DNA from: Taxawa tesnikishii (nom. ined.)
Lineage: Eukaryota > Ascomycota > Dothideomycetes > Dothideales
Assembly: GCA_030247885.1 (NCBI GenBank)
Contig: JAPDRO010000016.1
Span: 186,001 to 250,000 of the forward strand
Reading direction: 5' to 3'
Length of the DNA: 64,000 nt
The translations under genes were made by a program, and so were the position numbers. Shown here in pieces: positions 7,020 through 57,918 of the stretch; positions within the stretch are counted from its first letter, which is position 1, and each line of letters begins with the position of its first letter. The notes beneath the pieces are model-generated. The model saw only the letters and a program-made list of their open reading frames with translations. It searched no databases and was not told the origin of the DNA.

Positions 7020-8821
7020 ATGACACTCTACGAGCGCCGCTCAAGCATGGAGTCCTGGGATCGAGACCGATGGCGCGACCAATCGCCGACTGGCTCGCAG
7101 CGCAGAAAGCTCTCGTTCAACCCCGTCGGGACGTGGGTTCCTCCCAACGTTCAGGAAGAACCGGTAGCTGCGTTTGAGGTCAGCAGGGCGAAAAGGATTG
7201 CACAGGTTGCTGTTGCTGTCGTGTATTGTTTGCTGGCGGCGGGTGTGGTGTTTGGGTACGCGGCGATTAAACCGGTGTTGATCGAAGAGGGGTTTATCGG
7301 GACAAGTGCACCAAGGAGGAGCTGGACAGTGGGGTTTGGGTGTGCTACGAGCAGGAGTTGAGGTAGGTTGGAGTCCTCCGTAACGGAATATCCGAGTGTT
7401 GGGGGTTTGCGACAAGGTTGCTGATGGTGTGACTGTGCAGGCTGAACTTCATGTTCACGGTCGCGGCCGTCTCTACAAACGTCTGCGCACTCCCTGTGGG
7501 CACGATCCTCGACCGCTACGGCCCTCGCATTGCCGGCATAATCGGCTGCTTCTTCCTTTTCGTCGGTGCCTTGCTCTTCGCCTTCGCTTTCGACTTGCGC
7601 AACCACTTCGACGCTTACATCCCCGGCTACCTCTTCCTTGCTCTCGGGGTCCCTTCGTCTTCATCTCCTCCTTCCAGCTCTCAAACACCTTCCCCAAGCA
7701 ATCCGGTTTGATCCTAGCCCTGCTGACAGGCGCATTTGATACCTCATCCGCCGTCTTCCTCCTCTACCGCCTCGTCTACGAAGCCTCGGACCGCACCTTC
7801 TGGCCCAAAAGTTCTTCCTCGTCTACCTGATCGTGCCGGCCTTCATCCTCCTAGCCCAGGTCTTCCTCATGCCCGCCCAGTCCTACAAAACCGTCGGCGA
7901 GCTCGTCAGACGGGCTGAAGACCCACTGACGGATGACGACGCTAGCGCTATCTCAGATGAGGATAGACGCCAGGCCGTCCTTGCGGCTCGTCGCCAGCAC
8001 CGCGACAGCATCGTCGAGCAGACCGAGGCGCTCCTCGGCTCGAAATCCGGCGAAGCGCAGGCGGCGCAGGAGGAGCAGAAGCAGAAACAGAGCGGCGTCT
8101 GGGGCGCGCTGCACGGCCGGTCCGCCATGCAGCAGATCGCGACGCCGTGGTTCGTGCTCATCACGCTGTTCACGGTCGTGCAGATGACTCGGATCAACTA
8201 CTTCGTCGCCACCATCCGCACCCAGTACGCCGAGCTCCTGCACAGCTACCCCGCCGCCGTCCGCGTCAACGACTTCTTCGACGTCGCGCTCCCGCTCGGC
8301 GGCGTCGTTGCGGTCCCCTTCATCGGCCTCGTGCTCGACCACACCAGCACCGTGTTCGTGCTCGCGCTGCTCGTCGCCATCGCCACCGCCATCGGCGCTC
8401 TGGGCTGCGTGCCGGCCGAGTGGGCCGCGTACGCCAACATATGTCTGTTCGTCGTCTACCGCCCGCTCTACTACACCGCCGTCTCCGACTACAGCGCAAA
8501 GTCTTCGGCTTCGCGACGTTCGGGAAGGTCTACGGCCTCATCATCTGCCTCGCCGGTCTGTGTAACTTCTCCCAGGCCGGGCTGGACGCGCTTACGCATA
8601 GAACGTTTGGAAATGATCCCGTGCCGGTTAATGCCCTGTTGTTGGGCACTGCGGCTGTGGTGGGTGTGGCGCTCGTTGGCTATGTGTGGAGGCAGAGTAG
8701 GGGGATGGAGAGGGAGAGGTTGGAGACCGAGGCCGAAGCCGCGAGGGAGGTGTTGATTCCGGGCGCGGATGAGGAGGAAGTGGAGAGACCGCACGGGCAT
8801 CAGACGTACGGCACGGCGTGA
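7020..8821 (+). CDS. FMP42: Fmp42-like MFS transporter (SLC43-type), frame interrupted by homopolymer slips
   Basis: Major-facilitator membrane protein of the fungal Fmp42 group; substrate not established, and the animal relatives (SLC43) carry neutral amino acids. A 78-bp intron (7363-7440) separates the first helix region (AQVAVAVVYCLLAAGVVFGY) from the rest. Recognisable segments are TILDRYGPRIAGIIG (the loop 2-3 MFS motif), the region ending YLFLALGGPFVFISSFQLS, GLILALLTGAFDTSSAVF, a long hydrophilic loop near 7900-8100 and a second six-helix half. The coding frame slips at four places: G run 7289-7292, G run 7646-7649, A run 7807-7810 and A run 8498-8500. Each is explained by one missing base in the run. 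The gene is more likely intact in the organism than dead. Confidence 0.8.
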
Positions 8822-8970
8822 TGCGCACGCTAAGGGGAGGGACGGGGTTGATGGGTGTACGTAAGGGGTCATGACTCGAATGTATGTATGCTAATGGGTC
8901 TTTCTATGGAAGCTAACGAGACCCCCTCACGGGACTTCTTTGCCTTTTTCTCCAGCCGCGCTCACGCTTC

Positions 8971-10098
8971 TCAAGCGGCTAGGGGCTTGCTGTAAAACTC
9001 GACCTCTGGGAATGCAGCGGTCGCGCCCTGCAAGATCTTCGGCACGCCTTCTCCGAATGAGAATCTGAAGAACGCATCCACATAAGTCGCCAATATGACC
9101 AACGCTCTCCTGCCGTCCAGTCCTCCGACGAGAGCACTGGCGCCCGGCACGGCAGCAAGGCCCGTGAGATCAGCGACCAGCGGTGCGTCCGAGAAGGTGA
9201 GGTGCACGGAGTCCGTCAGCGTCAACTCGAGTTTGTTCGACCTGTTGGGGCTGTTCTGCAAGAACTCGGCCCACGACGGCACGCTCGAGGCGTTGTCGCC
9301 CACGCGGCCCCAGAGCAGGAACGGACGAGCAAGACCGGTCTGAACGACGGAGCCGTACATGGTGCCGTCGAAGTTCACGCCGCCCTTGAACGAGGCGTCT
9401 GAGGTCATGACCTGTGCCGATGCGGCACCGCCGAATGAGTGGCCCCAGACGGCCATGCGCCATCTGTCGACTTTGACGGAGCAGGGGAGGAGGTCTCCCG
9501 CAAGTGCGCGCTGCTTGACCAGCGTGATGTCCGCCGTTCGGTTGGCGAGGTTGGACAGCAGCTGCGCGTCCGTGTCCGCCGTCAGATTCGTCGTCGTCAC
9601 GTACGACCCGTCGGGGTACTCGATGATCGCGGCCTGTCCGGGGTCGTCCAGTGTGATGACGATGTAGCCACGGCTGGCGAGCTCCTCGGCGAGTGCGCTG
9701 TAGATCTGTCGCACCGCGCCCGCGCCGGACGAGAGGATCGTGAGCGGCCATCGTCGGGTTTGATGCTCTTCCGCGTACGACGAGGAGTTGCAAACCTGCA
9801 GGTCCAGAGAGGTGAACGTGTCGTTGGGGATGGGGAATCCGTATTCAGCGCCGTAGGCTTGCGCGATGGACTCCGCTGTCAAGGTCGGCATGTATGGTAC
9901 GAGGTAGGGGATACAGCTCGAGCGCAGGCCAATGGGGTAATATGTTGTTGTCATGACGCGCCACGGCTGCCCCATGTATGTTCGGGAGTTATCGGTGACT
10001 TCGTTAATGATGCTGTGAACGGCATACGTCTCGTTGGGCTGGTAGACTGTCACCGCCGCGGCGACCGGTATGACGAGTGGCAGGAATGACAGCAGCAT
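8971..10098 (-). CDS. secreted PAF-acetylhydrolase-like / alpha-beta hydrolase lipase
   Basis: A single 375-residue exon. Residues 1-15 (MLLSFLPLVIPVAAA) form a cleavable signal peptide and at least seven N-x-S/T sequons follow, so it is probably secreted. The nucleophile elbow GHSFGG places the catalytic Ser at 221. Candidate acid and base are Asp 244 (NFDG) and His 299 (DSVHLTFSD), the spacing seen in platelet-activating-factor acetylhydrolase II. The strand preceding the elbow, GYIVITLDDPGQAAIIEYPDG, fits the same family with a Gly-Gln change where many members have Tyr-Asp. Its biological substrate in fungi is unknown: a short-chain phospholipid or ester is inferred. The reading frame is intact. 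Confidence 0.82.
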   Translation of the reverse strand: MLLSFLPLVIPVAAAVTVYQPNETYAVHSIINEVTDNSRTYMGQPWRVMTTTYYPIGLRSSCIPYLVPYMPTLTAESIAQAYGAEYGFPIPNDTFTSLDLQVCNSSSYAEEHQTRRWPLTILSSGAGAVRQIYSALAEELASRGYIVITLDDPGQAAIIEYPDGSYVTTTNLTADTDAQLLSNLANRTADITLVKQRALAGDLLPCSVKVDRWRMAVWGHSFGGAASAQVMTSDASFKGGVNFDGTMYGSVVQTGLARPFLLWGRVGDNASSVPSWAEFLQNSPNRSNKLELTLTDSVHLTFSDAPLVADLTGLAAVPGASALVGGLDGRRALVILATYVDAFFRFSFGEGVPKILQGATAAFPEVEFYSKPLAA

Positions 10099-10853
10099 GG
10101 TAATTCTTGCCTGACGAGACTGAGGTTGAGGAGACGATGGAGAGAAGCAGGAATCTTTGGTGCGAGGTGACAGACGGGCACCCCGTATTAATGGTAGGCT
10201 CCAGCGGGGTTATGCAGCATCAACCCCGAGCTATCCCTGTAAACCACGCGGAAAGGATTGGCCTGACATGCGTGGATAGAGCCTAGCGCTATGCAGGAGC
10301 CGTGCTAACTAAAGCTTCAATTGAAGATAAAGGTTTCGAGTCTTTGCATAGGATGATTTTTACCAAAATTTATAGTATGTATAACACGATAGCTCCAAAT
10401 ACAACGAGTCTTTTGATAGCATTTGTGAGGTGAGACAACGTACATGCGTTACGCAAACTGCGATAAACCTCCCTACATTACGTGTAGTCTTTAGGGTGTT
10501 TGATTACCACGCTAGACCAAGAACTTTTAAGAACGCATGCGTGGAACGCCTTATATGGGATCCTGCCACGAGCAAGACTATACACGTAATGCCAAGCGGT
10601 CGGTACAGACAAGAGCAGGCTCTCACTGACATTGCTAAACATCCACTTGTAGCTCTTCGGTGCAGCCTGGACGTCTCCCGTCCCTTGCGGCTGCTCACAT
10701 AACTTGCACAGAGCCGATTCCGCAAAAGGAATCAGCACAGGCACGCAACGAAGCAGCACCGTTGAGAGGTGACGTGGGCGCTTTTCACGGTGTTTCCAGA
10801 TCTGAATCCTGTACTATTACAATGTTGAACGGCGTAGTCGCGTGATTGAAACG
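10099..10853. other. intergenic, AT-richer stretch
   Basis: No gene recognised. It contains the promoter of the lipase at its left and an AT-rich patch around 10310-10410; the remaining open frames are short and overlapping. Confidence 0.4.
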
Positions 10854-13046: not shown

Positions 13047-15458
13047 ATGTCGATGGAAGACCCAACGCTTGACTCGTATCCGAAAGGGTCAGAAGTCACT
13101 CTCCCATTGCGTGCACCTGCAGGCGCCGCTAAACCGCAGCGGGTGCTTGCATGTGTGCTCTGTCAGCAGCGCAAGATCAAGTGCGATCGCAAGTTTCCTG
13201 CGTGAGCTGCAGAAAAGCCGGCGTGCAATGTGTGCCAGTCAATACGCTCGCAAGTAAGCTCCGTACATCTGGCCATTCATTTATCTGATCAATACGATCA
13301 GGGACGCCAGCGCCGTCGGAGGTTCCCAGAGCGAGAGCTGCTGGAGCGGTTGAGGCACTATGAGGCTCTGCTTCGCCAGAACAACATCAAGTTTGAACCT
13401 TTGCATCCGTCCGCTGTGGATGAATCCTCTCCCAGCGAGGTCGGCGAACGGATCCATTCTCCAGGCGATGAGCGTTCGGAGAGAGTGACTGACGAAGCAG
13501 GGTTGTCAGATGGAACATCGAAGGAGGCGAGCACGCCTTCTGAAACAGTCAATTACTGGCATGCACTGAACCAAAAGGGCCAAGATGCCAAAGACAACGA
13601 AGACAATGACAGTGACTCCTCCGAAGATGATGATATACACGAAGGTACGATCAAGAAAGCATGGGATCACTTCCGCGACAACCACTCCAACCTACTGTTT
13701 GGTTCGCGAGCTACAGATATGGATCTCTCCACCTTGCACCCATCCCAGGTGCACATCTTCAAGCTGTGGCAGATTTACTTGGAGAACGTCAATCCACTGC
13801 TCAAAGTCACGCATACTCCTACCTTGCAGGCGCGCATCATCGACGCCGCTGGCAACGTAACAAACATCAGTCCTACACTCGAAGCGCTAATGTTCAGTAT
13901 CTACTGTGCCACGATTCTGAGTCTAGCGGACGAAGAATGCCGGATGAAGTTTGGTTCATCGAGAGAGGAACTCCTGACCCGATATCAATTCGGATGTCAG
14001 CAAGCACTGCTAAGCTGTGAATTCTTACGGTCTGACGATCGTGATTGCTTGACGGCGTTGTATCTCTACCTGGCAAGGCCTCGCTCCTGATGGTATTGCA
14101 CTCGCGCTAACCGTTTTCGAGGTCTCCATCAAACCGGACACAGACCCCGCTCTCTATCCTCCATGCTAAGTGTCGCACTCCGCATCGCGCAACGTATGGG
14201 CATCCACAGCGAGGCTTCCTATGACAGATGCAACGTTCTCGAAGCTGAGATGCGTCGAAGGTTATGGTGGTCCTTGATCGCCTTCGACAACCGCATTTGC
14301 GAGATGTCCATGAACCACAAATCCACTATGTTGGTTCCGACCTGGGACTGTAGGACACCGCTGAACGTGAACGACTTCGAAATCTGGCCGGAGATGAAAA
14401 AGCCCCCGGTAGCCCATGAGCAGCCTACCGAGGCACTTTTCCCCGTCGTGCGCAGCGAACTGGCTGATTTAGTTCGCGGCGCCGACTTCCACCTAGATTT
14501 CACCAATCCGTACCTGAAGCGGATGGCAAGGGGCGGTCAGCACGGGCGCCTTCCAGGCCGTGAGCTGGACATACTGGAAAAACTGATAGAGGAGAAACGC
14601 CTCCGAGACTGCAACCCAGAGAACCCGCTACACTTCATGACGCTCTGGACGGCGCGAACCCACCTCGCGCAATACCGACTTCTGGAACACTATTCGCACC
14701 ATTCTCGGCCATCCGCGCAGCTAACCGATACGCAGCGCGACGCCGCCGTCTCCCACGCCCTTCGCCTTCTTGAGTGCAACACTGAGCTCATCTCTTCCCC
14801 ACTCACCAAAGGATACCTCTGGTACGTCCGATCTTACTTCCCGTTCCCGGCCTACATCCACGTAGTGCAAGACCTGCGAAAGCGGCCTCTGCAGCCCCTT
14901 GCCTCGAAAGCCTGGGAAGTCATGAGTGAAAACTGGAGCGCAGACGAAGACCAGGATGCGCACGATGACGAAGACGAGGATAAGGAGAGGGTGAACGGTG
15001 GAAGACATCCTGGTAATCCATTCTTTGCGATGTTTTCCCGGATCGTGTTGCTGGCGTGGGAAGCAAGAGAGAGGGAAATGGAGAAGATGAGGGAGGGTGA
15101 TGGGATGCAAAGGGGTTTTCCCGGGTCGAGCGAGATTCCACGCATCGTATCCGACATCAAGCGCAAAGTCACGCCTGCGGTCTTCAATGTCAAGCCGGGG
15201 AGGAATCCTACAATGGGCGTGGAGCAGCCGAATACCGGGCCAGTGACGGATATGGACATGAACATCGACGATTTCATCTCGACGCTCATGCCCATGCCCA
15301 TGGACTTTGGTACTCAGGATCTACTGTATAGCCTGGACACGCAGGCAGACCCCGCTGCACTAGTGACTGGCGCAACAACCTGGGACTACTCCGGTCCGCT
15401 TGCTCAGGCGACGGTAGGGTTTGATATGAACCAGGTGGATTGGGATACTATGGGCTGA
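13047..15458 (+). CDS. Zn2Cys6 transcription factor with fungal-specific TF domain, frame slips
   Basis: Nuclear DNA-binding regulator. The N-terminal zinc cluster reads ACVLCQQRKIKCDRKFP, then (after a one-base slip near 13198) CVSCRKAGVQC, giving the six cysteines. An intron ends near 13310 and is followed by RQRRRRFPERELLERLRHYE, the basic linker and coiled coil typical of this subfamily, then an acidic serine-rich stretch. The fungal_trans middle domain is clear: MLSVALRIAQRMGIH, EMRRRLWWSLIAFDNR. A GC-AG intron lies at 14073-14121, and a further slip is in the C run 14145-14148, needed to reach PRSLSSMLS. The C-terminus is rich in Met, Gly and Asp. Target genes cannot be read from context: no biosynthetic cluster surrounds it, and it converges on another regulator. 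Confidence 0.82.
14073..14121 (+). other. GC-AG intron in the Zn2Cys6 gene
   Basis: Removing 49 bp from gcaagg to ttcgag joins LYLYL to VSIKPDTDP in frame for the family. A good gctaacc branch site lies 12 bp before the acceptor. The donor is GC rather than GT. Confidence 0.6.
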
Positions 15459-16484: not shown

Positions 16485-19400
16485 TTACCACCTACCTCCA
16501 TTCCCGCCCATCCCTCCCGCCCCTTCCGGCAATGTAAAAGCGCCTGGTCCATCTCCCAGTATCCAATCCCCAAAATCCCCACTCATGTCGAAATCATGCA
16601 ATGCCACATCGAGCGCTTGTTGGAAATCCAGCCTTGCGGTCCATGAGTCCATGTCTCCCATACCCCCAGCGTTGTTGTCGTAGGCTCCCGACGTCGTCAT
16701 GACGTCAGAAGCACTGTTGTTGCTCGCGGGGTTAGGTGTGACACCGTAAAACCCGTTGTTGTTGGTCGTGACGTTGAAGTTGGAGGGACTGTTCCCGAAT
16801 GAATCCAAACTCGTAAAGGTGGCAGAAGGCGGATTGCTGCCGTACGACTCGCCCGAGCCACTTTGAGACGCGAACGTCGACGGCGAGAAAGCAGACGGCG
16901 CCGTGTTCTGCTGGGATTTGGAGTGGGGTTTGTAGCGGGGACGACCCGGTTCGACCCGTTGTGGGTATGGTATCGCGGTAGGAGAGTCGAAGGTCCAACT
17001 CGTGTTGTCCTGCTTCTGATGTCCTTGCTGTTGCTGTTTCATCGCACCCGAGCCCCCGGTAGCAGCTTCGCTAAGAACGTGGAGCTTATTTTCATTTTTC
17101 GGTGGCCACTTCCTTGCTCCAGCTTCCTCCTTCTCCTCACCGACATCCTTGATCGGCCAATTCGCATGCGTGCCTTTGTTGTCCTCCCTTGGCGGCTCTC
17201 CGCTCTGATGAGTCCCAAACCACTGCCTCAGCACCCCAAAATCCTCAGCACCTTATGATGCTGCCTCCACGCGTCCTCCTTCGACATCGTCTCAAAGAGA
17301 TTCCACAGTCTCTCCAAGTGTTCCTGGACCTTCAGATCCTCGGGCTTCAGTATCTTGCCAAGCTCAGAGTCGGGTAAAGTTGCCGCGATGTGCATTTTGA
17401 TCAGCACCACGACGGCGTAGACGACACGCACGAAGTAGAGGAGGGTGGGGAGGCCGACAAGGGCTTCGCGCGAGAAACCGCAGTAAGTGTCGAGGATGCT
17501 GTGGACGGCGGTTAGACAGGCTTCGACGGCGGCCATTTGTTTCGGGGTTAGGGTTTCAGAGATTAGATTTCCGGATTTGAGGGTTGCTTCTGTGAAGGGG
17601 ATTTGAAAGTCATCTGTGTTGTCTGCAGAGATGCATTAGCAACGAGTGTTTTCAAAGGGGTTTGTGTGAGAGAGGTGAGGGAGGGCGTACGGTTCACATG
17701 CAGCGCTATTTCATGGAGGTAGAGACTTGTAACATCCCGGAAGTACATCAGCTCGGGACGCTTTAAGTCCTCAGGGATACTAGATTCCCATTCCTTGAGC
17801 TGTTTTTCGAGGATAGTCAACGCATAGGTGACTTTTGGGTCGGTGATTGAGATGGATGTGGCGGACGAATCGTCCATGGAGAACGAGGAGCCAATGTCTT
17901 CGCATATGTGCTGAATCTTGACATGCTGAACTAGATAGCGATCCGATGGCAGCGCGTCGGGAGATGTTTCTAGCACGTTGATGCATTCATGCATGTAGTT
18001 GGTCCATCGGATCAGGTTTGGCCGACGCAGGACCATGGAAGTGCTGTTGTCACTTAGTAACGGTTCAGATTGAGAGTTGGGATACGCACCTCGCACAGAG
18101 ATAGTAGCAAGTCAGCCAAGCTCTTCTCGCCTCCACAGTATCCGAGTCGACAAGTGGCATCGGTCTATTAGTCCCTGGAGCCAGGTCCTGACCAGGACCC
18201 CAAAAACCACGTCGAGCCTTTGCTGCGTTGAATCGCTTGCCCAAGCCAATATCCAGAGCCATGACAGCAGCCATGTGGATCAACTGGTAAAAATTCGTCT
18301 GTTCGGCCTTTTCAGGGGCCTGTACCATAAGACCGTAACCTGCATTGACTGGATTAGCTCGAGAGATTTTGCCGCATGCCGAAGGACACAGTCAGCGATC
18401 GCCGCTATTGCCTCCTTGTTGAGCATGTTCTGAACGTCTTGAGGTATCAATCCGAAGCCTGATGCAGCAAGGATACAGAGGAAGAGCACCGGCTTGTTCT
18501 TCAGCACTTCGTCAGCAGTGGTGTCTGGAGGAAAGACGACCGCGGGCATGTGCGGCGCAAGATTCTTGGTGTATCGATTGAATATGGCCTCGGCAACTGC
18601 CGGCTCGACTAACGTTCTGATGCGACTCACAACCGCCTCCGGATCGGTGTGATACAGCAAGCGGCGAATGTCTTCCTCGCGATCGAGACGTACGTTTCGT
18701 TCCAAGGGGTCGCCCAGGATCTTTTCCGAATCGGTCTCGCCACGGCGATACATATCCTGCACTCTACCAAGAAGAGGATCTTCGGGCACTTTTCCGTAAA
18801 GGTGATCTTTCGGCTCCTCAATTCTTCTGCGCTTGTTCGACTTGCCAGATGGGGCGGCGCCTGGCCACGTGAGTTTGAGCTCCTTATCCGGGGTGCTCTC
18901 GTCAGATCGTTGTTGCGTGGACGATACCGGAGGCATCGGATCTCCGCCAGGACCAGACGCCTCTCCGGAGGGGCCATATTGTGCGCCTTGGCCCAGTTGT
19001 TGCAGGTTGGGTTTGCCGTTCTGTTGTTGCGCTTGTAGGACGGCAGTGAGTGCATCCAACTTCTTCTCGAGCTCTGCAACCCTACTGTCTGCCTTCTTTT
19101 GCCTCTTCCTCGTGGGTTGAGTGATGACACACTGCCTTCCAGCTTTGGCGCATCTCTTGCAAGGTTGGTCCGGATGGTTCGGGTCTTGGTCGCAGCGTAC
19201 TTTGAGACCACGACAAGCTTCACATGCGCGAGGGCGTTTGGCATCGGAGTGAGGATCATGGGTAGGACTGGTTCGTGTGAGCTGTCATGTGGTACACGAT
19301 GACAAGACGCGTCCACGAAGCGACAGGCGTATTGCGGTAACTGTGCCTTGTAGGGATTGCCTACCTGTCATTCATGTAATCATCCTCTCCACCGGTCTCA

Positions 19401-19669
19401 GGAATCTCAATGCTAGCAATGGCGTCTTCGCTCGACCTGCTAGCGGGAATACCAAAGTACGGCTGCTCTACTCTTCCAGGCGCATCGGGATTCATCTGGT
19501 GGTGCTGTTCCTGGCGCGAACCAGACTGTCTTCGCACGTCTTGCGACGCGAAACCCAGGGCCGGGACGGACAGTGGGGGATGTCCATACGCGGCCCTCGA
19601 CTGCGCTGAATCAGGTGGCAGCAGTCGAGGATCCAGCAATTGGTGCTGCGGCGGGCTGTTGTTCATCAT
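16485..19669 (-). CDS. Zn2Cys6 transcription factor (War1/PrtT-like group), frame slips
   Basis: Four exons: 19365-19669, 18090-19267, 17691-18043 and 16485-17622, with introns of 97, 46 and 68 bp. The zinc cluster ACEACRGLKVRC...CKRCAKAGRQC is formed across the first splice and is followed by TRKRQKKADSRVAELEKK, a basic linker plus coiled coil of the War1/PrtT type (inferred). The middle homology region includes FNRYTKNLAPHMPAVVFP, VLFLCILAASGFG and a FYQLIHMAAVMALDIGLGKR helix. The tail is Gln/Asn/Gly-rich, an activation-domain-like region. Two one-base slips are needed: G run 18315-18318 (plus strand), restoring WYRPPEKAEQ, and C run 17234-17237, restoring RILGVLRQW. The start at 19669 is one of two tandem ATGs. 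Confidence 0.82.
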
Positions 19670-20593
19670 GTCGTCGCTGGCCTTGACGTACAGCAACGGA
19701 GGCCGGAAATGTCGGTGGCCGAAGGTTGAAGCACCGACGGGCGGCAAGTCGTTCCGGCCAAGAGTCGCTCTTTCTTGCTTGCTTGATTAATATTACTGCA
19801 GCACGCCCATTGCCGTTACTTGGCAGCCTGCAACATCAGTCCGCTCTCAATGGACTTTGTTTGTCTGCCTGGCTTCAAGCTGTTGTTGATGTTGATGTTT
19901 CTGAACGAACCAGGCAGCAATTGTGTTCATGGACGGGAAGATCAGGGCATTGAGAGGAGAACACAGCCGCGTGCAGCAGAAGGATTCAGGCTAGTTCGTT
20001 AGTCATGCCGTTGGTGATTCACCTACGGCCGCATTGAGCTAAGTAAGCTACGGTTTGTACATTGTGCGCAAGCCTGTGTTCTTCCACGTCAATGGCCAAA
20101 TCACACGAAGCTCTCTATCTATCGACTTTTCGTTCCGCGACCATCGAATACCTTGCTTGGATACAGAGAACCCGTGGGAACTCCTTTAGACACACTAATC
20201 ACAGACGCGGGTAAGAACGTCGACTCTCGTGACGAGAAGAGAGAACTGTTGTTTGAGTGAAGATTTTCGTGCGTTCAGAAGCTGACCCCGTCAGACTTTA
20301 TAGGAAACCACCACAGATAGCAGAGATGGAGATGGTTGGAATGAACGCTCCGGCTGACCCACGAGAGTGAGGAAGTGGGGGCTATGGACGGCTTGTTCAT
20401 CTCCATCCGACCTCGAAGTAGCCCGCGACAAGGCTCATGGTCCGGGACCGGATCATAGTTCACCGTTGAGCGGTTCGACACTGCACCCGTAACTGCTTCC
20501 TGCAAGTGAGACATGGTCTCCATCATTGCATTATCGGGTATCCCGAAAGCCTGGTCCACACTTCACCCCAGAGAACGCCGGCCAACATGAGCG
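19670..20593. other. upstream region of the second regulator
   Basis: No gene supported. The short minus-strand frame 20275-20559 may be a continuation of the HET-like fragment to its right but shows no motif. Confidence 0.35.
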
Positions 20594-24491: not shown

Positions 24492-27332
24492 ATGGCTTCC
24501 TGGAACCCTCACGACTACTCACGATCACGGCATTACGACTCAGCATACGATAGACGCACCCGACACGACTCGAGATCTAATGAGTATGCGATTACACAGC
24601 TACGCTTCGAACCCTCCCCAATATGAAATTGACACTTCAGGCAGATACAAGCCTGAACATCCCGCCTACGATCTTCGCTATTCTTACCCGCCTCCGCCGC
24701 CTAGAGACACAGGCCGTCCCTCAGGCTTACCAACCCGACAAAGAGCTCGATGGCCGCCGTCGCCAAGTGTGGAGGATGAGGCTGTCGCATTGTTGAAAGA
24801 GCATGGAACTACAAGACTTCAGGCCGAAGACGTACCGCAATCCAGAGGAACCATTGACCAGGAACCACTCATCCAAGATGTCCCAGGTGCCGTGCCTGCG
24901 CCAAGCGAGGATCGCCGGTTTGTGTGGGTGGAGTCGAAGGCAGGCAAGCAAAAGACACACCTACTCCTCCGACCAGCGACGATGAAAAGATCAACGTGGA
25001 AGGCGGAAGGCGCCGAAGCTGGAAACCGGTGCATTGCCTGAGATGAGGGGCGCCAACCGTCGCCATACGCCTGGAAGCCACCAACATATCCCTCAAACAA
25101 CCGATCTTCTGGAGAATTCTTCTTGTCCCCGGATTGTCTCACACCACCGCCCACTGCGCCTTCAGCATCTCGGTCTAAACAAGCTTCTACAAGTGTGCCA
25201 TGGCCTTCCAGTACGGACAGCCAACCGAACGTGTCGAAGAAAGAGGACGCCAGCGCATTTGATGCTCTGCGGAACGATGAGGATGTCTTTGACAACTCAG
25301 ACATTGACGATGGAGGGGCGGCTTCGCTTAGAACACGAAGACCGCCTGCACGCTACTCTTTTGTCAATCCTGAGGCGCAGATCTTGACTACTCGTAAGGC
25401 CACCTCTGGTACAGCAAGCCCTATCCCGGATCCCATACGAAAACCTGGAAACACAGAGGAGGCGAGGGCACACCCTGATTTTTCTAACAATTCCTCACGC
25501 CCGGAAGTCTTGGAAAGAGCACGGAAACCCACGCCGCTCAAAGTGTCTAGCTTGGCGCAAGACACCATTACTTCGTCGGCCAAACAAAGCAGTCCCAATC
25601 AGCTAAGCGGTCAACCATATCGAACGCCATCACAAACATCATCCTCTCCATATCCGCCTTCTCCTCCTCGATCGCCACGACTGAATGCCGATAAGGCGAG
25701 AGAGTCTAAGCCACCAAGTATACCTAACTCTCGACCTGGGTCCAGGGATACTTCGCTCAGATCCACCCCCAGACATCACCTCATCTTTCTAGCTCCCTGC
25801 CCTCCGGTGACCAAGCATGGAATTCCTACTTCGCATCTCAGGCGGCTCAACGATCTCGTCCGCCTTCCAGGCTTGCTTCCTCATCAACTGTGCCCGAGTC
25901 TTGCAGCTATGTGCCGCCACGCCTGCGCGAGCCAGTACGGCATTCGTCAAGCTTACCATATCCTGTTGAAGAGGATGTTTATCAATTGATGCCGTCCGAG
26001 AAAGACCACCAATTCTTCCCTGAGCAATTAACCACTGTCGACTCACCAGCACCCAAAACGCTGTCCCGAGCAGGCACTCCAGTATCTACCCCTTCAGAAC
26101 GCGCGAGGCCACCCTTCCCGATGCGACACACTGCTGCAGAGGTTATCCCGCTCGCTTCTCCTTCGGCCATCAATAGTCGAAAGGCTTCGATCACAAGGCC
26201 GGCAAGTCCAAAGACGCCGTCCACCTCAGCTCCAGCGCCCTTGCCTCTGCCGGCATGTCCCAGGCCAGAGTACTCAAGAGGACATGACGACTGGTATATG
26301 CTCGACGGCTGCGCAGGCTTCGACATCTGCCCTGACTGCGTAAGCGGAGTGTTTGCAAGCACAGTCTATCGATCGTACTTTAAGCGTTCGCCGCCACGAC
26401 CTTCCTCCGTGCAGACTAAATGTGACTTCAGTGATCCTTGGATACGGCTTGCTTGGCTGCTGACATTGCAACGTCAACTGCCATCTCTGTCGCTGCTTAA
26501 ATCACTCACGAATCTGCCTATGAACCATCTCGACCAGCCCTGTCCTGGATCTGCTGAAGAAGTCCGCAATTGGTATACCATCCGGGATCGCGATGGACGC
26601 TATCTCCGAGATTTTGTGGTATGTCCGCAAGATGTGCGCAAACTTGAACTTCTCCTTCCTGCTCTGCGCGGCCTTTTCGTACCTCTTCCTCAGAGGAACT
26701 CATATTCATATGGGTATCAAGGCGAGGAACGCAAGTGCGCGTTACGAACCACGCCCAACAATCGATTCTCACTCTACCTGGACTCGCTAGTCTCATTGCA
26801 CGAGTCGGCCGCCTCTGCTCGCCGGATGCCTGACACTTCCAATTTCGTCTCTTTGGTTCGTCACAAATCAAGAATACGGGAATGCACCAGGGACGATATG
26901 CTACGAGGACAGCGTTGGCACTACATTCCATCTCTCCTTCCAGCGTTCACAGTCTGTCAAGACTGCTTCGACGAGGTTGTTCAGCCACAGCTACGGGCTG
27001 ACTCCGACATCGCCATGCGATTCAACGGCGAGCCCCAGTTCGTCAGTAGCGAAGGTCGCCTGGGCTCTTCTTGCCAGCTGTACTCTGCTCGCATGCGCAG
27101 GGTCTTCAAGCGCGCCGTCGAAGATAATGACCTCAAATACCTTGCGCGCCGAGCGAAGGAAAGGAAAGAAGTGGAGGACAAGCTGCAGGGAAGGGTGGCG
27201 GATATCAACTACATGAGACGGCGGTTGAGGAGATCGGACAGCTATGCGCTGAGCTCGAGGGAAGAGGCCGAGTTGGACAGATTGCAGGATGAATGTGAGG
27301 GGATTGCGGAGGAGTGGAGCGCTTGGGAGTAG
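24492..27332 (+). CDS. large conserved filamentous-ascomycete protein of unknown function, frame slips
   Basis: Roughly 900 residues. The N-terminal half is disordered, Ser/Pro/Arg-rich, starting MASWNPHDYSRSRHY (24492; the ATG at 24580 is an alternative). The C-terminal half (from about 26260) is a compact Cys-containing domain: PACPRPEYSRGHDDWYML, FDICPDCVSGVF, RPSSVQTKCDFSDPWIRLAW, CPGSAEEVRNWY, FTVCQDCFDEVV, LGSSCQLYSARMRRVF, and a closing coiled coil ending EEWSAWE. The paired CxxC motifs suggest metal binding. I recognise this arrangement from unnamed fungal proteins but know no function. Slips of one base fit short runs at 24960, 25037, 25047-25050 and 25766-25770; the extreme N-terminus also changes frame in a way I could not resolve. 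Confidence 0.7.
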
Positions 27333-27681: not shown

Positions 27682-30004
27682 ATGGCGGCGCAGTCGAAAC
27701 TCCAACTGCCCGGTCGCATCACAGAACGCTCGATAAAGCAAATGGTATCCGACCTGACGTCGCTCTACCTGAAGCACCGTACTCGCATCTCGCGGGCAAT
27801 TTATCTAAGTCTGTTCGTCGCTCTCATCGGTCGTATTCGAAATGCCATCAAAGAGCAGAAAGCCGCCGCCGCTCGTCAGGCTGAAGCCCGCAAGCGTCCA
27901 GGAACCGGAGCCGCAGAGGGCGAGGCAACGGGGCGGAAAAAGGTGGAACTGAATCGCGAGTTCTTCAAGAATTTGCTGCGATTGTTGAGGATCTGCATAC
28001 CGGGGTGGAAGAGCAAAGAATTGAGGCTGTTGATCAGTCATAGCGTGTTCCTTGTGCTGAGGACACTGATCAGCCTTTATGTGGCTGAGTTGGATGGGAG
28101 ACTGGTCAGCAATCTGGTCAGAGGCAGGGGAAGGGACTTCTTAGGAGGTCTGGTCTGGTGGATGGTTGTTGCCATACCCGCAACATTTACGAATTCCATG
28201 GTTTGGGCATTCCCTTCCTCCTCATGCATACCGGTAGCTGATAGAAGATGTTACAGCTTTCGTACCATCAATGCAAGCTTGCGCTGCAGTACCGTACCCG
28301 TCTCACCCACTACATACATAACAAATACTTGTCCAACATGACATTTTATACGCTTTCCGCACTGGACGACCGGATCAAGAATGCGGACCAACTCATCACC
28401 GTGGACGTATCCAAATTCTCCAACAGTCTTGCAGAGCTCTACTCCAATCTCGCCAAGCCGATACTGGACATGGTCATATACAACTATTCTCTCTCACGCT
28501 CCGTCGGAGGCGAAGGCCTTTTGCCATGGGTCTACTGGTCCAGCTCTCTGCCAGCGTGATGCGGGCACTGACACCGCCATTCGGTAAATACGTCGCAGAC
28601 GAAGCGCGTCTCGAAGGCGAATTCCGATACCAGCACTCACGCCTGATCGATTACAGCGAAGAAATTGCGCTATACCATGGTCATGAGGCGGAAAAGGACA
28701 CGCTGGACAAGGGCTATTTCACGTTGATCAAGCACGTCAACCGGATCCTGAGACGCCGCTTCTACCACGGCGTGATGGAGGACTTTGTCATCAAGTACTT
28801 CTGGGGCGCGCTGGGTCTGATGCTGTGCAGTATCCCCGTCTTCTTCAAGGTCCCTTCTGCAGGCGGACAGGTGGGCAGCATGGGCGATAGAACGGAAAGC
28901 TTCGTTACTAACCGGCGACTCCTACTCTCGTCATCCGACGCCTTCGGCAGACTGATGTTCTCATACAAAGAGATCTCTCAGCTTGCGGGCTACACCTCAC
29001 GTGTGAGCACGCTCCTCTCCGTCATCGCCGACATCCAACGCGGCCACTTTGAGAAAACCCTTGTCAGCTCCGCCTCCACCACCACTAACGCTGCCGTTCT
29101 TTCCGGGCGCGGCGAGCTCACCGAAGGCCCCGACATCGAATTCGTAGACGTGCCCATCGTGAGTCCAAACGGCGACGTTCTAGTCTCCAAACTCAGCTTC
29201 GCCATCAAACCGGGCGACCATCTCCTCATCGTCGGCCCCAACGGCTGCGGAAAATCCTCCCTCTTCCGCATCCTAGGCGGCCTCTGGCCCGTCTACGGCG
29301 GCAAGGTCCGTAAACCACCCGCTGAAGACATCTTTTACATCCCCCAACGCCCTTACCTCTCGCGCGGCACGCTGAGGCAGCAAATCACGTACCCCGACAG
29401 CCTAGCCGAGCAGCGCGACCGTGGCGTCTCCGACGCCGAGCTAGCCGCGATCCTGGACGTGCTGGGGATCGCGGACCTGCTGCAGCTGCGCGGCAGACAG
29501 GCCCCAGACTCACACCCTTTGGCGGGCTTTGACGTCGAGGCTGAGTGGAACGACGTCCTGAGTATTGGCAACCAGCAACGCATCGCAGCCGCGCGGTTGT
29601 TCTATCACCGACCCCAGTATGCGATTCTGGACGAGTGTACGAGCAGCCTGACGCCGGATGCGGAGAAGATCATGTACGATGAGGCGAAGAGGTTGGGGAT
29701 CACGCTCATGACGGTCAGTCATCGGAGGAGTCTTTGGAGATATCATGGATGGATTTTGCAGTTTGATGGGCAGGGGAATTTGTCTTTACTAGGTTGGATG
29801 CGGAGGAGAGGTTGAGGCTCGAAGAGTAAGTCGTTGTTCTTATGTCTTTGCTCTGATGGGGCGGGCGGGAAACGGTGAGGGGTTGTCTTGTGAGCGGGAT
29901 TGGCTGACATCTTTGTTTTCTGCAGTGAGAAGGAGGAGCTTGATATGCAGCTGAGAGCTGTCCCGGAGATCGAGAAGCGCATTGCCGAACTGTCGGCTGC
30001 ATGA
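27682..30004 (+). CDS. PXA1: peroxisomal ABCD half-transporter (Pxa1-like, long-chain acyl-CoA import)
   Basis: Half-size ABC transporter of the ABCD family, which imports long-chain fatty acids or acyl-CoA into peroxisomes for beta-oxidation, normally as a Pxa1/Pxa2 heterodimer. Introns are 28201-28256 and 29826-29925. The membrane half includes [19 protein letters not shown] and the family hallmark [19 protein letters not shown]; then [17 protein letters not shown] and EEIALYHG. The nucleotide-binding half has Walker [11 protein letters not shown]-loop [15 protein letters not shown], Walker [11 protein letters not shown] and H-loop TVSHR. The signature reads LSIGNQQR where LSGG is expected. 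One-base slips fit the T run 28519-28522 (restores [14 protein letters not shown]) and the T run 29779-29781 (restores the tail ending IAELSAA). No targeting signal is obvious beyond family membership. Confidence 0.88.
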
Positions 30005-38707: not shown

Positions 38708-40195
38708 TCAAGCAAGGCCGAAAACAGCCCTCATACGCTTGCGCAGCTCTCCGCCCATGGCGAGTCTGGTCTCCCGCGTCCTGGTGGCAGCATCCTTGTT
38801 CTCGGCCGCTCTTCGCAGCAGATAGTTCAAGCACTCCTTCATGGTGCCCCAGCAGGAACACTTGAACACCTTGGGCACGTCAACGACCTTCTTGTCTGAG
38901 GCGTCGCCCTTGCTGGCTTGGAGGAGCTCGCAGCTGACCTCGTCCGCCATACCCTGGAGCTGTCCGTATGCCAGGGGTACAAGCTCTTCGCCGTTCTGAA
39001 TCTGCTCGGTTCTGAGCGCCTGAGCTTTGCGGACTGTAGTTGCATTGTGGGTTGCGAGTACGACATTGATCTCGGGGAGTTCTTCGCTGGCGTTGCCGGA
39101 CACGGGCTGCAGAGTCTCGGTGTACTTGCGCTTGAGCAGAGATGCGGTGATCGAGTCGTAGTTGTTGTGTGTCGATTCGATGGTCGGCCAGATCAAATGC
39201 CGTGGCTCGGAGTGGAGGTATGCGCCTCGGACAAGCTTGAGACCGAGGATGTGGCCGTCTGCCTTCGCCATCGCCAAGTGCTTCGAAATCTGGCCTGCCG
39301 TGCTCTTCAGGTAGCATTGGTATGTGTTGTAGATCACCGCGCTCCTGCCCCGATTGTACACCCGCTGCATAGCCATGCTCCACTCGTCAATCGTCGGCGT
39401 GGTTGTTGTTTCCTCCGCTGCGGGAAGAAGCCTTACACCTTTGGCGGCTGCCGCGTCGCAGACTTGCCGAATCGCTTTGTCCATAAGCGGTGAAGGCTGC
39501 TGCTTCGCCTTCAGCCGTTGAAGCGCATGGGTTCCGAGGCCAGACCATCTGTGTTGCGCGGTTAGCTCGCATACTCTTGTATTGCATGGATGTTGTCCAA
39601 AACTTACTTGACTCCGAGGAAATCGCCCGGGGCAGCGATCTCGATGGACGTGAGCATGTTCTCCACCCACCACGCAACGTCCTTCTCCTCGTTGGCGTTG
39701 ACCAAGTCCTCCTTAAGCATCTCAAGAGCGTGCTCAAGGATGACTCCATCGTAGCCAACGGCTTGAAGGTTGTGTTTTGTCTGGGTGACCTCGGCCTTGT
39801 TGGAGCCGGCGCAGTATTGCTTGTAGAATGTCTCTCGAAGAACTAATCGGAGCACAGGATTGCGCTCAATGTCAGTCACGAATGACTTGGACTCGAGCAT
39901 GCGCGTAAGGACGGCGGAACATGCTCCGAGAAGGGCAGGCGAGGAGGAGACGGCAGTCATGAGGTAGGTCCGGAGGACCGTCGACAGGGGAAGGCATGCC
40001 AGCGCAGCATCCTGAGAGGTGGAAGGAGCGGTCGGCGGAGGGTAGGCGATGGCCCTGGAGGATGCGCTTGAGCTCGCTGCCAGCGATGCTTTGTCGGAGC
40101 TGGAGCTGTGAATGGAGCGGGAGCACACAAGGAAGGGGAGGGGACTGCTTCACGATAGCGTCGAGACGCGCCAAGCGGAGGCTGCCGGTCTTCAT
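38708..40195 (-). CDS. PUT1: mitochondrial proline dehydrogenase (proline oxidase)
   Basis: FAD enzyme oxidising proline to pyrroline-5-carboxylate in mitochondria, the first step of proline use as nitrogen or carbon source (PUT1 in yeast, prnD in Aspergillus). Two exons, 39608-40195 and 38708-39548, with a 59-bp intron ending gttagc..acacag, joining GDFLGVK to WSGLGTH. Core beta/alpha-barrel motifs: YNTYQCYLKSTAGQI, LGLKLVRGAYLHSEPRH, VLATHNATT and AYGQLQGMADEVS, then LNYLLRRAAENKDA. The N-terminus (MKTGSLRLARLDAIVKQ, then SRSIHSSSS) is a Ser/Arg-rich mitochondrial presequence. Two one-base slips, in the runs 40135-40138 and 40140-40143, restore KQSPSPFLVCSRSIH. No pyrroline-carboxylate dehydrogenase or permease gene lies beside it. 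Confidence 0.9.
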
Positions 40196-44600: not shown

Positions 44601-44679
44601 CATGCCGACTGCCACATCGAAGACAACAGCAAAACCTCAGGCCGCTGCTCGTCGGAAAAGGAAATGTACTTAGGCCTGG

Positions 44680-50352: not shown

Positions 50353-52803
50353 ATGTCTTGGAATACACCAGGCCTCGAGTACGCTGCGCCTCTGGCATCT
50401 TCGCAGTCGCCGACCTCCCTGCCGCACGCCCAACCAAGTCCTCAGACGCCAAACTCGGTGCAGCCATCCAGGAAGCGCAAGAAGAGCGAGAATGGCGATG
50501 ATGAGCAGCAACAGCAGCGCGGCAAGCATCAGCCTGTGAAGAGGGCGTGTAATGAATGCCGTCAGCAGAAGGTACTGCCAAATCTTGCCGGGTTTCCGAT
50601 GGAAGTCCTTGGTGGTCGTGACTCTCGCGCCTTATTTCGGCCTTATCGCAAGGGAATGGCTGACAGTGAGTCACTTAGTTGAAATGCAACGTTGTCACCG
50701 AACCAGAACTCAAACCATGCAGTCGCTGCATCAAACACCATCTTCACTGTGCTATCGATCCGGGTTTCAGGAGACAAGAGAAGCGCCAGCAACATGCAGA
50801 GATTGAGAGGGAGGTGCAGGCGTTGAAGGCCGAAAATGCAGAGCTTAGAGCCATGCTTGCTCGAGGAATACAAGCGACAACAGGAGCAGCAGGTGGACCT
50901 GCACGATACCCCTACAGGGTGGCTTTGGGCCTGCCTCTTCAGCTTTTCCTGGGCCCAACGAAGCTGCTGCCTCGCGCTCATTGCTCGATCTTGCGCAAGG
51001 CTTCGATAGCTCCTACTCTGGAAGCGCGTCGAAAGAGCCGACAACACACACACTGGGCAGGGTTGCTTTGACCGACAAGGAGATGAGCGAGTTGTTTGCC
51101 ATCTACTTCGCAAACTACCATCCATACCTTCCGCTACTCTCACACGATGTTACTTCGACGCAACTCTTCAGCTTGCATCCGCTCGTGTACTGGGCGGTCA
51201 TAGCAGTGGCATCGCGACGCTATGAAGCGCGTCCGACGCTCCTGATCGAGCTCAGCCAGCCTCTCACGGACTTCGTCTGGTCAACTGTTGCTTCAGTCCC
51301 ACAAACGTACCACGTCGTCAAGGCGCTGTGTTTGCTCTGCGCCTGGCCGTTACCAATCAACTCCACCTCGACTGATCCCAGCATGACAATTGCCGGTGTC
51401 ATGGTACAGCTTGCCATGGTGTTTGGACTCCATCGCCCATCGCACGCACAAGATTTTTCGCGATACAGAATAGAACTGAGAGAAGAGGACATCAAAGACA
51501 GGATGAACACATGGGTTGCAGTCAACCTGATGGCGCAGAAGTAAGGCGGAAGCTAGGCGGAAGCTTGTCGATTCGCATTCTCGGGGGCTAATGTCTTCCA
51601 GTGTTTCAACAGGCTACGGCATGCCTCAGATCTCCAGATGGAACTGGTATACGCATGGCCTTCATTTGGACCGCATCTCGACAGCGTTCCGCAACCGCTG
51701 TTTGATAGAGCGCTTCAACGACAACATTACAAGAACACTGTACACTATGCAACGCGATGATATTGTCAAAGTGGACGAGGCGCAACGCGCTCTCACCATA
51801 GACATGTTTACGCGTCAGTACGAGGAGCTAGAGATCGTTGTTCGCGACAGTAAGCCTCCGCCTTCACGTATGTGTGCGCGCGCGACTGCAGACTCAACAA
51901 CCCCTTGTCCGAGTTTATTGAGCTGACTTTGATCACAGCGATGGATATTCTTTACCTTCACTGTGCGGGCTTGCACCTGCGTCTCACGGCATTGTTCGAC
52001 CATCCCACTGCTCCAAACTACCGCGACGATCTTTCCACCCTCTATGTCGCCGCCTCCACTCTCTTGAAGACATTCCTTGCTACACCGTCAGATGCTACAC
52101 TCCCCCGAACACCGATCCTGCGTTAGCCCCTGACCTCCTCGGCCCAACCACCTCCACAGGATCTCCCTTTGCGACCAACTACATCATGCAAATGATCCTC
52201 GCAGCCGGCTCCACACTCCTCAAGCTCCTCAATTCCTCCTTCGCCGCGCACCTCGACATCCCAGTGGGCCGTACACTCTTCCTGCAGACCGTGCAAGCAC
52301 TGCGCAGCATCAGCGTTGTACAAAACGACCTCCCACAGCGTCTGGCTGAGGTTCTGGCGCAGCTGTGGCAGGATGCAGGACAGGGAAATCAAAACGCAAG
52401 GCTGTTCGAAGGCGATGGAACGAAGAGGCAGGAAATCGACAGCAGCTTGCAGCTAAAAGTCCGCTGCAGGATGAGCATGTCACTCGTCTACGACAGCGTC
52501 TGGCGCTGGCGAGAAAAGTTTGGCGCTCACAAGAACCTGGATCGCGCCGTCGAGCATCCGACCAGCGTAGAGGCTGATGGTGTTGGCGCTACGCTCGGAG
52601 CCGTGAACAGCGCCTCCACAGGAACTGGCGTGCAGGATGTCGGTGCGCTGGGAGGAATGGGAGATATGGGGATGGGTACGGGTATGGACGGGTTTGATCT
52701 GGGACTAGGAGGGATGGGAGGCGCGGACGCCATGTTCGATCCCCTGGGGTGGTTCTTGGATCTCCCACAGTACAATCCTGCCGAAGGAGGGTTCGCGGCT
52801 TAG
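50353..52803 (+). CDS. Zn2Cys6 transcription factor (Leu3-like zinc cluster), frame slips
   Basis: Three exons: 50353-50571, 50679-51540 and from about 51602 to 52803. The first 107-bp intron splits the zinc cluster exactly: KRACNECRQQK joins LKCNVVTEPELK and PCSRCIKHHLHC. A coiled coil follows (EIEREVQALKAENAELRAM). The middle domain has ELFAIYFANYHPYLPLLSHD, MVQLAMVFGLHRPSH, then after the second intron GYGMPQISRWNWY, and a C-terminal helix region LIMQ-type FATNYIMQMILAAGST. The tail is Gly/Met/Asp-rich. One-base slips fit the C runs 50909-50912 and 52102-52106, and one lies near 51870 in a GC-dinucleotide stretch. The zinc cluster spacing (long first loop) resembles Leu3-type regulators; target genes unknown. 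Confidence 0.82.
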
Positions 52804-54870: not shown

Positions 54871-54913
54871 GTGTGCGGCGGTGAGGTTGGCCGGGGTGGC
54901 CAGAATGCGAGGA

Positions 54914-55168
54914 TGGAAGCTGGTGAGATGGAGGAGCAGGGCGAGACGGACGGGCAGGGCGCAGTGGAGGAGCAGGGCGAGACGGACGGGCAGGGCGCAG
55001 TGGAGGAGCAGGTACATGTAGACACGTCGTGTTCAGCTCGCTCAGAAGCCGGTAAGATGGAGGAGCAGGGCGAGATAGATGAGCAGGGCGAGACGGAAGA
55101 GCAGGGCGAGATGGACGAGCAGGGCGGGATGGACGAGCATTCACATGTAGACACGTCGTGTTCAGCTC
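54914..55168. repeat. minisatellite with higher-order structure
   Basis: Two and a bit copies of a 36-bp unit (beginning gaggagcagggcgagacgg) are followed by about four copies of an 18-bp unit (gagcagggcgagatggac type). Each block ends in the same 26-bp sequence, acatgtagacacgtcgtgtt and the next six bases, at 55014-55039 and 55143-55168. All units keep frame in one plus-strand reading, encoding EEQGETDGQGAV and DEQGEM repeats, but no start or splice supports a gene. Confidence 0.7.
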
Positions 55169-56020
55169 ATTCAAGACTCTCCAACCCCTTCTTGTCGTAC
55201 CCAGATGGGTCATTAATCCACAAGTTGCTCGTCTGCGGCAGTTCAGCATGTCGATACCCCTTTGGCCGGGTATGATGAACTGATGCTCAGAAGACTGGCT
55301 CTACAACTATCATGCCTACATTGAGCATTACTGAAACCTATGCTTGCCCAGATAGCCTGATCTCTAACCAGCGCCATCACCAGTTGGGACACGAACGACC
55401 GCGTCACTGAGAAGACATCACTTTCAGATCACCCAGCACCGTCGATGGCACTTCTACTTCCGACCAGAAACCACCAACAACGCGTCTCTTCATATGTCGT
55501 ACTTCCTCTTCCAACTCGAACGACAAGCGACGGCATGCTTCGACAACAACAAGACCAGAACCATGCCGGGGAACACTGGCACTGCAAAAAGCTGGCAACG
55601 ACGGGTTTACACGTGTTGAATGTATCGGGGGCTAAGAGCACGAGCACAAACACAAACACAAATACAAACACCTAGAGATGGATCAAGAGCCTCGGAAGCA
55701 TACCTTCGCCTGTCTACATTACAAGAGCTGTATGCTGCGATGAGTGCTGGACAGCAGCTGATACTGCTAGGAACATGGCGCATTGTACACATATCTGGCG
55801 CTGGGTCGACATGTCGAGAGCAAGGAAAGCAACGGGCTGCGCAACAGGACACATATCACACCATACAACAGAAGTTCAGATCTCGCAATCACACTGTAAT
55901 ACGGTCTTCCGTGCTCATCCGATGTTGCATTCCGAATTCACTCCTCCATTCCACGAACACAGCATTCCTGATCCCAAAACAGCAAAGCGTATCGATGCAT
56001 TCCAGTCCAAATCCCGCTCC
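55169..56020. other. intergenic, no gene seen
   Basis: Includes a short (CACAAA)n tract at about 55642-55672. Confidence 0.4.
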
Positions 56021-57918
56021 CTACAGTCTGTATCTAAACTCCTTGTTCGCCCTGTCCGTCACATCCGCGAACTCGATATCCGCTTTGTGTTCCATACCCG
56101 TCCGCTCGGCCAACCGATCCCTCCTCTTGTTCTCCCACACGTAGTAGAACCTCAGCACGAGCGTCATGGCGGCCGCGAACGCACACGTGACGATGATGGT
56201 AATCTTTGCCGGGATGTAGTCCGGCGCGTCGTTTCCGCGGAAGGTCAGGGGCCCGATGATGTTGCCCAGGCAAAAGACATGAGGAGGATCGCGTTCATGG
56301 TTACCTGAGATACATCAATCTGGCGGTCTGGCATGGCTCCCGACTCGAGAGCTTGGAACGAGATGTGTGGTCGCGCTTACCTTCTTGGTATGTCCGGCGT
56401 AGTTTGCCGCAACCCAGGAGTACAGCAAGGGGAGGGTTGCGCCGATTGCATTGGTGAGGTAATTCCCAATCAGCTTCCCGGCCTTGTTGTCCGCGGGCAG
56501 GAAGGCCATGAGTGCGGCCCCGATGATACCTGGTATGAGCAGGGTGATGACGTTGATCCCACGCTGGTTGTACCGGCCGGCGAGATACGTTGCGATCAAG
56601 ATGGAAACAATCGAGACGCCGCCAGAGGGGATCTGCAGCAGCGCTGTTTGCCTCGAGTTGTAGCCAAACCCCTTGATGATTGTCGCTTGGAAGCTGCTCA
56701 CGGCACCATTTGGCACGTTCGAGCTGATGGTGACAAGCGAGAGCAGCCATGTCTGTGGGTCCGAAAAGCATTCGATGACTTGAGCAGGCTTGAAGTGCTT
56801 GTTCTCGACTCCGGTCTGGTTCTCACGAATGCGTTCGATGGCCCAGAACTTCTCTTCTTGGGATAATCTTGACTTCATGGGGTTGTCGGGCAAGAAAACG
56901 AACACGAGGATACCCACGACGCATGTAATAAGGCCGATAACGAGGAACATCTGTTAACATCAGTGGTTCGGTCTGAGCGTTTTACGTAGAGGAAGACCGA
57001 CGATTTGCCAGCTGAAGAAGGTACGGCCGTGGTAATGCTGAAAACCATAGCTGATAAGGGAGCCAAAAATGGTTCCTGTGCCAGTACCTAGATACCAGAT
57101 GCCGACTCTAGGGGCTGCTCATGTTTTCTGTACCACATGGCCTACAGCGAACTGTCAGCAGGGGTTCTGAATTGGATGCCTTATCTCGGAAGAGAGGGCT
57201 GATGTGCTTAACAAGGCGCACCGTCTCACCGACGGACCGTAGAGAGTTGGCTCAACGAACAACCCGCCGCTGGAACGAAGGTCTGTTGGGGACATGGAAG
57301 AGGGCGCGTAATGTACTGACCGTGATCAAGATGAGCGACGGTGCAACAGCACTTTCGAAGCAGCCGAGCAAAACTCTAGTAGCAACGAGCGCTCCATAGC
57401 TCTTGCAGGCCGATGTGACTGCAACCATGGCTCCCCACAAGAACACCATTGTACCAAGATACTTCGCCGTGGGGAAACGCTGCATTCCGAATCCATGAGG
57501 GAACTCCAGCGCCAGATACGAGACATAGAAGATCAAAGCGAGGTCGGAGAACTGTTTGGCGTTGATGTGCGCGTCGGTATATAAGCCCATGACCGCGGCA
57601 TAGTTGACTGACAAACAACATGTTAGCTTTCCTTCCCGGCCATCGTAACGAAGAGGGCTACACACTGAGTGTCTTATCCAGATACTGCAGGAAATAGCAA
57701 GCCCACATCAGCGGCATGATCATCCAGTCAATCTTGCGCAGCAACTTTCTGTTGATCTCTGGAGTAAGTGTTCCAACCTGAGACTCTCGTCGCAAGAAGT
57801 CAAGCGCGGCATCTGCATTCTTGACATCCTTGACTACCCCCACGGCTGGACTGGGGTCGCGTGGTGTAGACGGGCTCTCGGGCAACTCGTGCTTCTCGGA
57901 AGTGTACGAAGCTGCCAT
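56021..57918 (-). CDS. Dal5-like MFS permease (allantoate/anion:cation symporter family), frame slips
   Basis: Plasma-membrane transporter of the fungal allantoate/nicotinate/vitamin permease group. Five exons: 57666-57918, 57321-57607, 57002-57141, 56381-56950 and 56021-56304. Joined, they give the family hallmarks: KLLRKIDWMIMPLMWACYFL, QYLDKTLINYAAVMG across the first splice, RVLLGCFESAVAPS, MWYRKHEQPPRVGIWYL, then FLPDNPMKSRLSQEEK in the central loop and helices through LLYSWVAANYAGHTKK. One-base slips fit the runs 57111-57114 (restores EQPPRVG) and 56272-56275 (restores MSFCLGNIIG). Substrate is not determined: the group carries small carboxylate anions. No purine or allantoin catabolic gene is adjacent. 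Confidence 0.87.

Follow-up and report, generated by a model that had tools for sequence, protein, structure and literature searches.

Within the 64 kb window analysed here (bases 186,001–250,000 of contig C8 of the Taxawa tesnikishii assembly), several transporter and regulator genes have reading frames that break at short runs of a single base, and these breaks are almost certainly errors in the consensus of the assembly and not the marks of dead genes. The pattern is real and extends beyond the window. A sequence-only reading had attributed it to systematic assembly error and not to gene decay, and this is borne out by breaks on several contigs, their presence in housekeeping genes, their single sign wherever homology leaves no space for an intron, their position at runs and a truncated distribution of run lengths. 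Under the proposed mechanism, the base caller and the consensus would under-count homopolymers, mostly by one base, at true run lengths of about five and upwards, with C and G the worst affected; each base lost from an exon would shift the frame by −1, making an intact gene look split. A consensus that under-counts runs would account together for the one sign, the preference for runs, the spread over several contigs and the shortage of long runs. The true run lengths, the reads that would show them and an origin in nanopore sequencing without short-read polishing are the parts of this explanation that we infer.

The assembly comprises 29.4 Mb in 34 contigs, and the guanine-plus-cytosine (GC) content of the window is 54%. 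Twenty stretches of 10 kb were taken from other parts of the assembly, and counts of runs and frames cover the window and 19 of these loci (190 kb), or 254 kb; the twentieth, L014 (26% GC), was excluded. The control region was 50 kb of Escherichia coli K-12, a bacterial sequence and not a finished fungal genome.

Domain seams in conserved genes

A search of the organism's own genome with nine Pfam families gave 140 matches over 108 kb and 43 neighbouring pairs. Only matches at most 1,000 bases apart and in profile order were paired. Three families were partly scored (9 of 323 Sugar_tr candidates, 14 of 75 for AMP-binding and 11 of 48 for Aldedh), so breaks in these families may be under-counted. 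Where the DNA between two matches has an intron-sized excess (33 of the 43 pairs), the phases are mixed, with 15 the same, eight minus and ten plus, as introns should give; two more pairs have a still larger excess. The eight pairs without room for an intron all change frame by −1, and none by +1. One of these, formed by nested tRNA-synt_1 matches on C1, was set aside as an artefact, and two soft pairs of the same sign, in HSP70 (38 bases of excess) and SNF2 (14), were not counted as clear. The five clear seams lie in Cpn60_TCP1 (C1), HSP70 (C3), RNA_pol_Rpb2_6 (C7) and SNF2 (one on C1 and one on C30). Four of the five lack exactly one base relative to the profile, and four have a run of four to five bases at the seam.

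Matches to PDB chains identified the polymerase gene on C7 as RPC2 on both sides of its seam, upstream to chain residue 996 and downstream from residue 994, at E-values that are modest (0.026 and 0.0043) for queries of 33 amino acids. The chaperonin gene (Cpn60_TCP1) was identified as CCT5 on the upstream side of its seam only (E 0.0006, again with a query of 33 amino acids), and the downstream side gave no PDB match. All four Rpb2-family candidates were scored and amount to three genes, the expected one copy per polymerase, which makes a further, intact RPC2 unlikely.

These seams bear directly on whether the broken genes could be real pseudogenes, with frameshifts fixed in the strain. The frames do break in the sequence as given, and the genes listed in the window, mostly transporters and regulators, could be dispensable. 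Against this, the same lesion is present elsewhere in the assembly in RPC2 and CCT5, both essential in yeast, and a living isolate is very unlikely to carry such genes as pseudogenes. Decay should moreover give both signs and keep to dispensable genes, where the pairs without intron room have one sign and breaks are found on several contigs and in housekeeping genes (judged by their essentiality in yeast), as expected of consensus homopolymer error; runs are also short in the sampled DNA as a whole, coding and non-coding pooled. Fixed pseudogenes are thus an extremely improbable source of the breaks.

Nor do introns misread as breaks offer a good general account, even though most neighbouring domain matches have an intron-sized excess between them and one frame change in the ABCD transporter gene of the window coincides with a 56-nucleotide (nt) intron candidate. 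Introns need about 40 nt or more, and no such spare bases exist between the frames at the five clear seams or at 28,511–28,522 in the window; they would also be expected in all phases and not in one. We regard introns as a very improbable explanation of the breaks as a whole, and they may yet hold for one or more of three window sites (25766, 40135 and 50909).

Frame losses and gains without homology

Consensus error is also supported by a Viterbi frame model, which uses the codon usage of long open reading frames (ORFs), allows introns and charges an equal cost for the loss or gain of one base. A codon model with a frameshift cost of 12 gave no frameshifts in the window, because codon bias is weak, and cheaper costs were calibrated afterwards with planted changes. 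At cost 8 the window and the 19 loci gave 31 losses against six gains (sign test 4e-5), and at cost 10 there were 19 losses against two gains (sign test 2e-4). The sequence-only reading had placed almost every break in a run, and such a preference is evident here as it is at the clear seams: a run of at least four bases lies within 27 nt of 17 of the 31 losses and of none of the six gains, compared with 19% of random places (binomial 1e-5). The model calls about one loss for every 4 kb of the coding span that it covers (31 in 128 kb, false calls included), with nine in 25 kb in the window and 22 in about 103 kb elsewhere, so that the window is not far from the remainder of the sampled DNA in loss rate.

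Of changes planted in the assembly's own long ORFs, at cost 8, 60 of 81 losses were called as losses and one as a gain, and 50 of 81 gains were called as gains and three as losses; the model had been trained on these same ORFs, so the calibration flatters it. Its false calls are few at this cost.

A shortage of long homopolymer runs

Expected numbers of runs were derived from base doublets, with coding and non-coding DNA pooled. In the 254 kb, C/G runs of at least six bases number three against 75.6 expected, and A/T runs of that length number 34 against 68.5, or about half. The same deficit is seen in the 19 loci alone (C/G, 2 against 57.0; A/T, 27 against 52.2) and in the window alone (C/G, 1 against 18.6; A/T, 7 against 16.3), where runs of six or more are scarce and the longest is at most seven bases. 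In E. coli the corresponding numbers are 3 against 14.8 for C/G and 59 against 37.5 for A/T; the A/T shortage is therefore absent there, whereas the C/G shortage is present but deeper in this assembly. That C/G runs are hit harder than A/T runs is weak evidence by itself for a nanopore origin, as the contrast runs in the same direction in E. coli. Penicillium digitatum, which has a genome of about 26 Mb and is reported to have 2,080 mononucleotide runs of at least 12 bases, would lead one to expect about 20 such runs in 254 kb where one was found, a figure that depends on the genome size and serves as a yardstick only. The distribution of run lengths is truncated, as consensus homopolymer error would make it.

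The excess of modelled losses and their preference for runs would also be seen if the runs were truly short and RNA polymerase or ribosome slippage restored the frames genome-wide at runs of three to five bases. Frame restoration by slippage is found in some insect endosymbionts at long poly(A) tracts; the runs here, of three to five bases and of all four bases, are shorter than such tracts, and slippage would leave the overall shortage of long runs in the sampled DNA unexplained. It is barely conceivable as the cause.

Genes and breaks in the window

The sequence-only reading had named 12 breaks in at least eight genes, each ascribed to one missing base. Runs are present as described in all 12 stretches, and nine of the breaks are supported, falling in six genes and not eight; those at 25766, 40135 and 50909 were not confirmed. 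At cost 8 the frame model placed a call within 40 nt of seven (7646, 7807, 17234, 18315, 28519, 52102 and 56272), in each case one base short, and two (14145 and 57111) are supported by three-frame inspection and not by the model at that cost. The features are as follows.

About 7,440–8,790, + strand: gene like the major facilitator superfamily (MFS), with a weak MFS_1 match (E 0.0007, under the cut-off) ending at 7651
7646–7649, + strand: break in the MFS-like gene, one base short, in a run of four (frame model, three-frame view)
7807–7810, + strand: second break in the MFS-like gene, one base short (frame model, three-frame view)
8494–8502, + strand: third break in the MFS-like gene, one base short, near a run of three (frame model, three-frame view)
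14145–14148, + strand: probable break, one base short, in a Fungal_trans regulator gene of about 13,290–15,456 (Pfam, three-frame view)
17234–17237, − strand: break, one base short, at two adjacent runs of four in a Zn2Cys6 regulator of about 16,580–19,790 (Pfam, frame model, three-frame view)
18315–18318, − strand: break, one base short, in the same Zn2Cys6 regulator (frame model, three-frame view)
25766–25770, + strand: proposed site with overlapping open frames (ORFs, Pfam, three-frame view)
28201–28256, + strand: candidate 56-nt intron of the ABCD gene; its GTTTGG donor is unusual (profile coordinates, sequence)
28511–28522, + strand: break, one base short, in the ABCD-type ATP-binding cassette transporter, with a run of four at 28519–28522 (Pfam, PDB, frame model)
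40135–40143, − strand: proposed site in the leader upstream of a proline dehydrogenase match, with a single base between two runs of four (ORFs, Pfam, frame model, three-frame view)
50909–50912, + strand: proposed site in the linker after a weak Zn_clus match (Pfam, frame model, three-frame view)
52102–52106, + strand: break, one base short, in a probable regulator at 50.6–52.8 kb (Pfam, frame model, three-frame view)
56272–56275, − strand: break, one base short, in an MFS permease gene (MFS match, frame model, three-frame view)
57111–57114, − strand: probable break, one base short, in the same MFS permease (three-frame view, by eye only)
63439–64000, + strand: start of the RRP12 gene, unbroken to the end of the window (PDB chain 9xac_7, E 7.9e-69)

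In the ABCD transporter, Pfam and PDB homologues fix the break in addition to the model. Family PF06472 is matched from 71 to 162 in one frame and from 156 to 269 in the next, and ABCD3 (chain 9ngj_B) from residue 144 to 230 in one frame and from 228 to 645 in the next; the 9ngj_B coordinates are contiguous across the frames, and so only the frame is missing at the seam of 28,511–28,522. The intron candidate at 28201–28256 would explain an earlier frame change in this gene, which would then not be an error. Some frame changes in the broken genes thus appear to be ordinary introns.

In the MFS-like gene all three frames are traversed in turn, at 7646, 7807 and about 8494–8502, in one direction throughout. 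The break at 8494–8502 is absent from the list of 12 and has the same sign as those listed. The names given earlier to this gene (Fmp42-like) and to the permease at 56272 (Dal5-like) are narrower than what was seen, which is membership of the MFS. At cost 8 the window holds nine losses and two gains, the losses being the seven recovered sites, 8502 (+) and an antisense call at 8491 (−), which lies at the same place as 8502 and is taken as spurious. The break at 57111 was never called by the model, and that at 14145 was called only at a cost of 6 or less, paired with a gain read as an intron. Just upstream of 14145, a possible GC-AG intron lies at 14073–14120 with a CTAAC branch-like motif; it would possibly account for the frame change there. 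The regulator broken at 52102 matches Zn_clus and Fungal_trans, in each case below the cut-off.

At the three unconfirmed sites the evidence differs. The stretch around 25766 has no Pfam match and received no call from the frame model. Downstream of 40135, the proline dehydrogenase match (profile 66–277; 39,502–38,774, − strand) is unbroken in one open frame. At 50909 there are two possible upstream frames, and a loss is modelled 70 nt from the site, at a cost of 7 or less only. The loss modelled at 63,389 with a cost of 6 is apparently a false call, as RRP12 starts downstream and reads intact.

At least 105 Zn2Cys6 domain matches are present in the assembly, which points to a filamentous ascomycete. 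An Rfam scan was empty, as was a tRNA scan in its bacterial setting. The excluded stretch L014 (C5:500001–510000) stands apart in GC content from the 19 other sampled stretches (50–58%); it has no ORF of 250 amino acids or more, and may represent a centromere or a block of AT-rich repeats.

Sequencing platform

The sequence-only reading had suggested a long-read or flow-based assembly. PacBio continuous reads and flow-based reads are both generally known for run-length errors, and low-coverage PacBio continuous reads or flow-based sequencing could have left similar errors. An assembly of 29.4 Mb in 34 contigs implies long reads, however, so the long-read part of the suggestion stands and flow-based sequencing is unlikely. 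For nanopore reads, PMC8486125 describes deletions as dominant, accuracy as falling above a run length of 4–5, and C/G runs as worse than A/T runs. Deletion dominance, trouble with runs above that length and C/G bias are alike in the present case, although that paper deals with raw reads whereas only a consensus is available here. In nanopore-only assemblies of Drechmeria coniospora, run-length errors put conserved genes out of frame, and this persisted until short reads were brought in (PMC7500977); the likeness lies in a filamentous ascomycete with conserved genes mis-framed in this way, and that paper describes PacBio-only fungal assemblies as not hindered so. Taken together, the run errors of PMC8486125 and the mis-framed fungal genes of PMC7500977, with PacBio-only assemblies exempted there, make nanopore sequencing without short-read polishing the likeliest source; we hold it to be the probable one with good confidence, and another platform to be unlikely.

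Evidence weighing against consensus error

Several observations pull the other way. Most conserved stretches are unbroken (five clear seams in 140 matches and 108 kb), and the intact start of RRP12 is an internal negative within the window. The SNF2 seam on C30 has no run of four nearby and adjoins a run of three. The claim of a constant sign, which holds for all eight pairs without intron room, is at odds with the model's two gains in the window (56368 and 18112, both on the − strand at cost 8); these may be introns. The model's false calls lean to losses: at cost 8, three passes over ORFs without planted changes gave three losses and no gains, and at cost 6 such ORFs gave ten losses and three gains. 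Five pieces of E. coli likewise gave nine losses and three gains at cost 8. When E. coli was left unsplit there were nine losses and four gains, of which only one of the losses and none of the gains fall inside a single annotated gene, and the losses are not linked to runs (three of nine, against a background of 29%); this sign control was misleading at first, probably owing to overlapping or abutting neighbour genes. C/G runs of at least six bases are scarce in E. coli too, and part of the deficit may be natural. A few long runs survive in the sampled DNA, namely one C15 and four A/T runs of 8–10 bases. Lastly, polishing in PMC7500977 gave more insertions than deletions for D. coniospora, where losses dominate here, which suggests that the sign of the error depends on the pipeline.

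The lone C15 run is found at L009:9837 despite the near-absence of C/G runs of six or more, and is either real or inserted by the assembler.

Implications for annotation

According to the Kastor study (PMC12007338), pseudogene counts in long-read drafts are strongly inflated by errors that affect less than 0.05% of the genome. The gene-fragmenting errors are alike in the two cases; the difference is that Kastor was applied to small genomes with reference genomes and reads. The warning that pseudogene calls in this sequence are unsafe is upheld, since the broken genes are best explained as assembly artefacts. The artefact is an ordinary one and involves no new biology, and it is useful as a warning for annotation: domain seams, the sign of frame changes and the tail of the run-length distribution are checks that need no reads and are able to flag such records. 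For T. tesnikishii, gene counts, pseudogene lists and protein predictions drawn from this assembly are unreliable, and many genes will look split.

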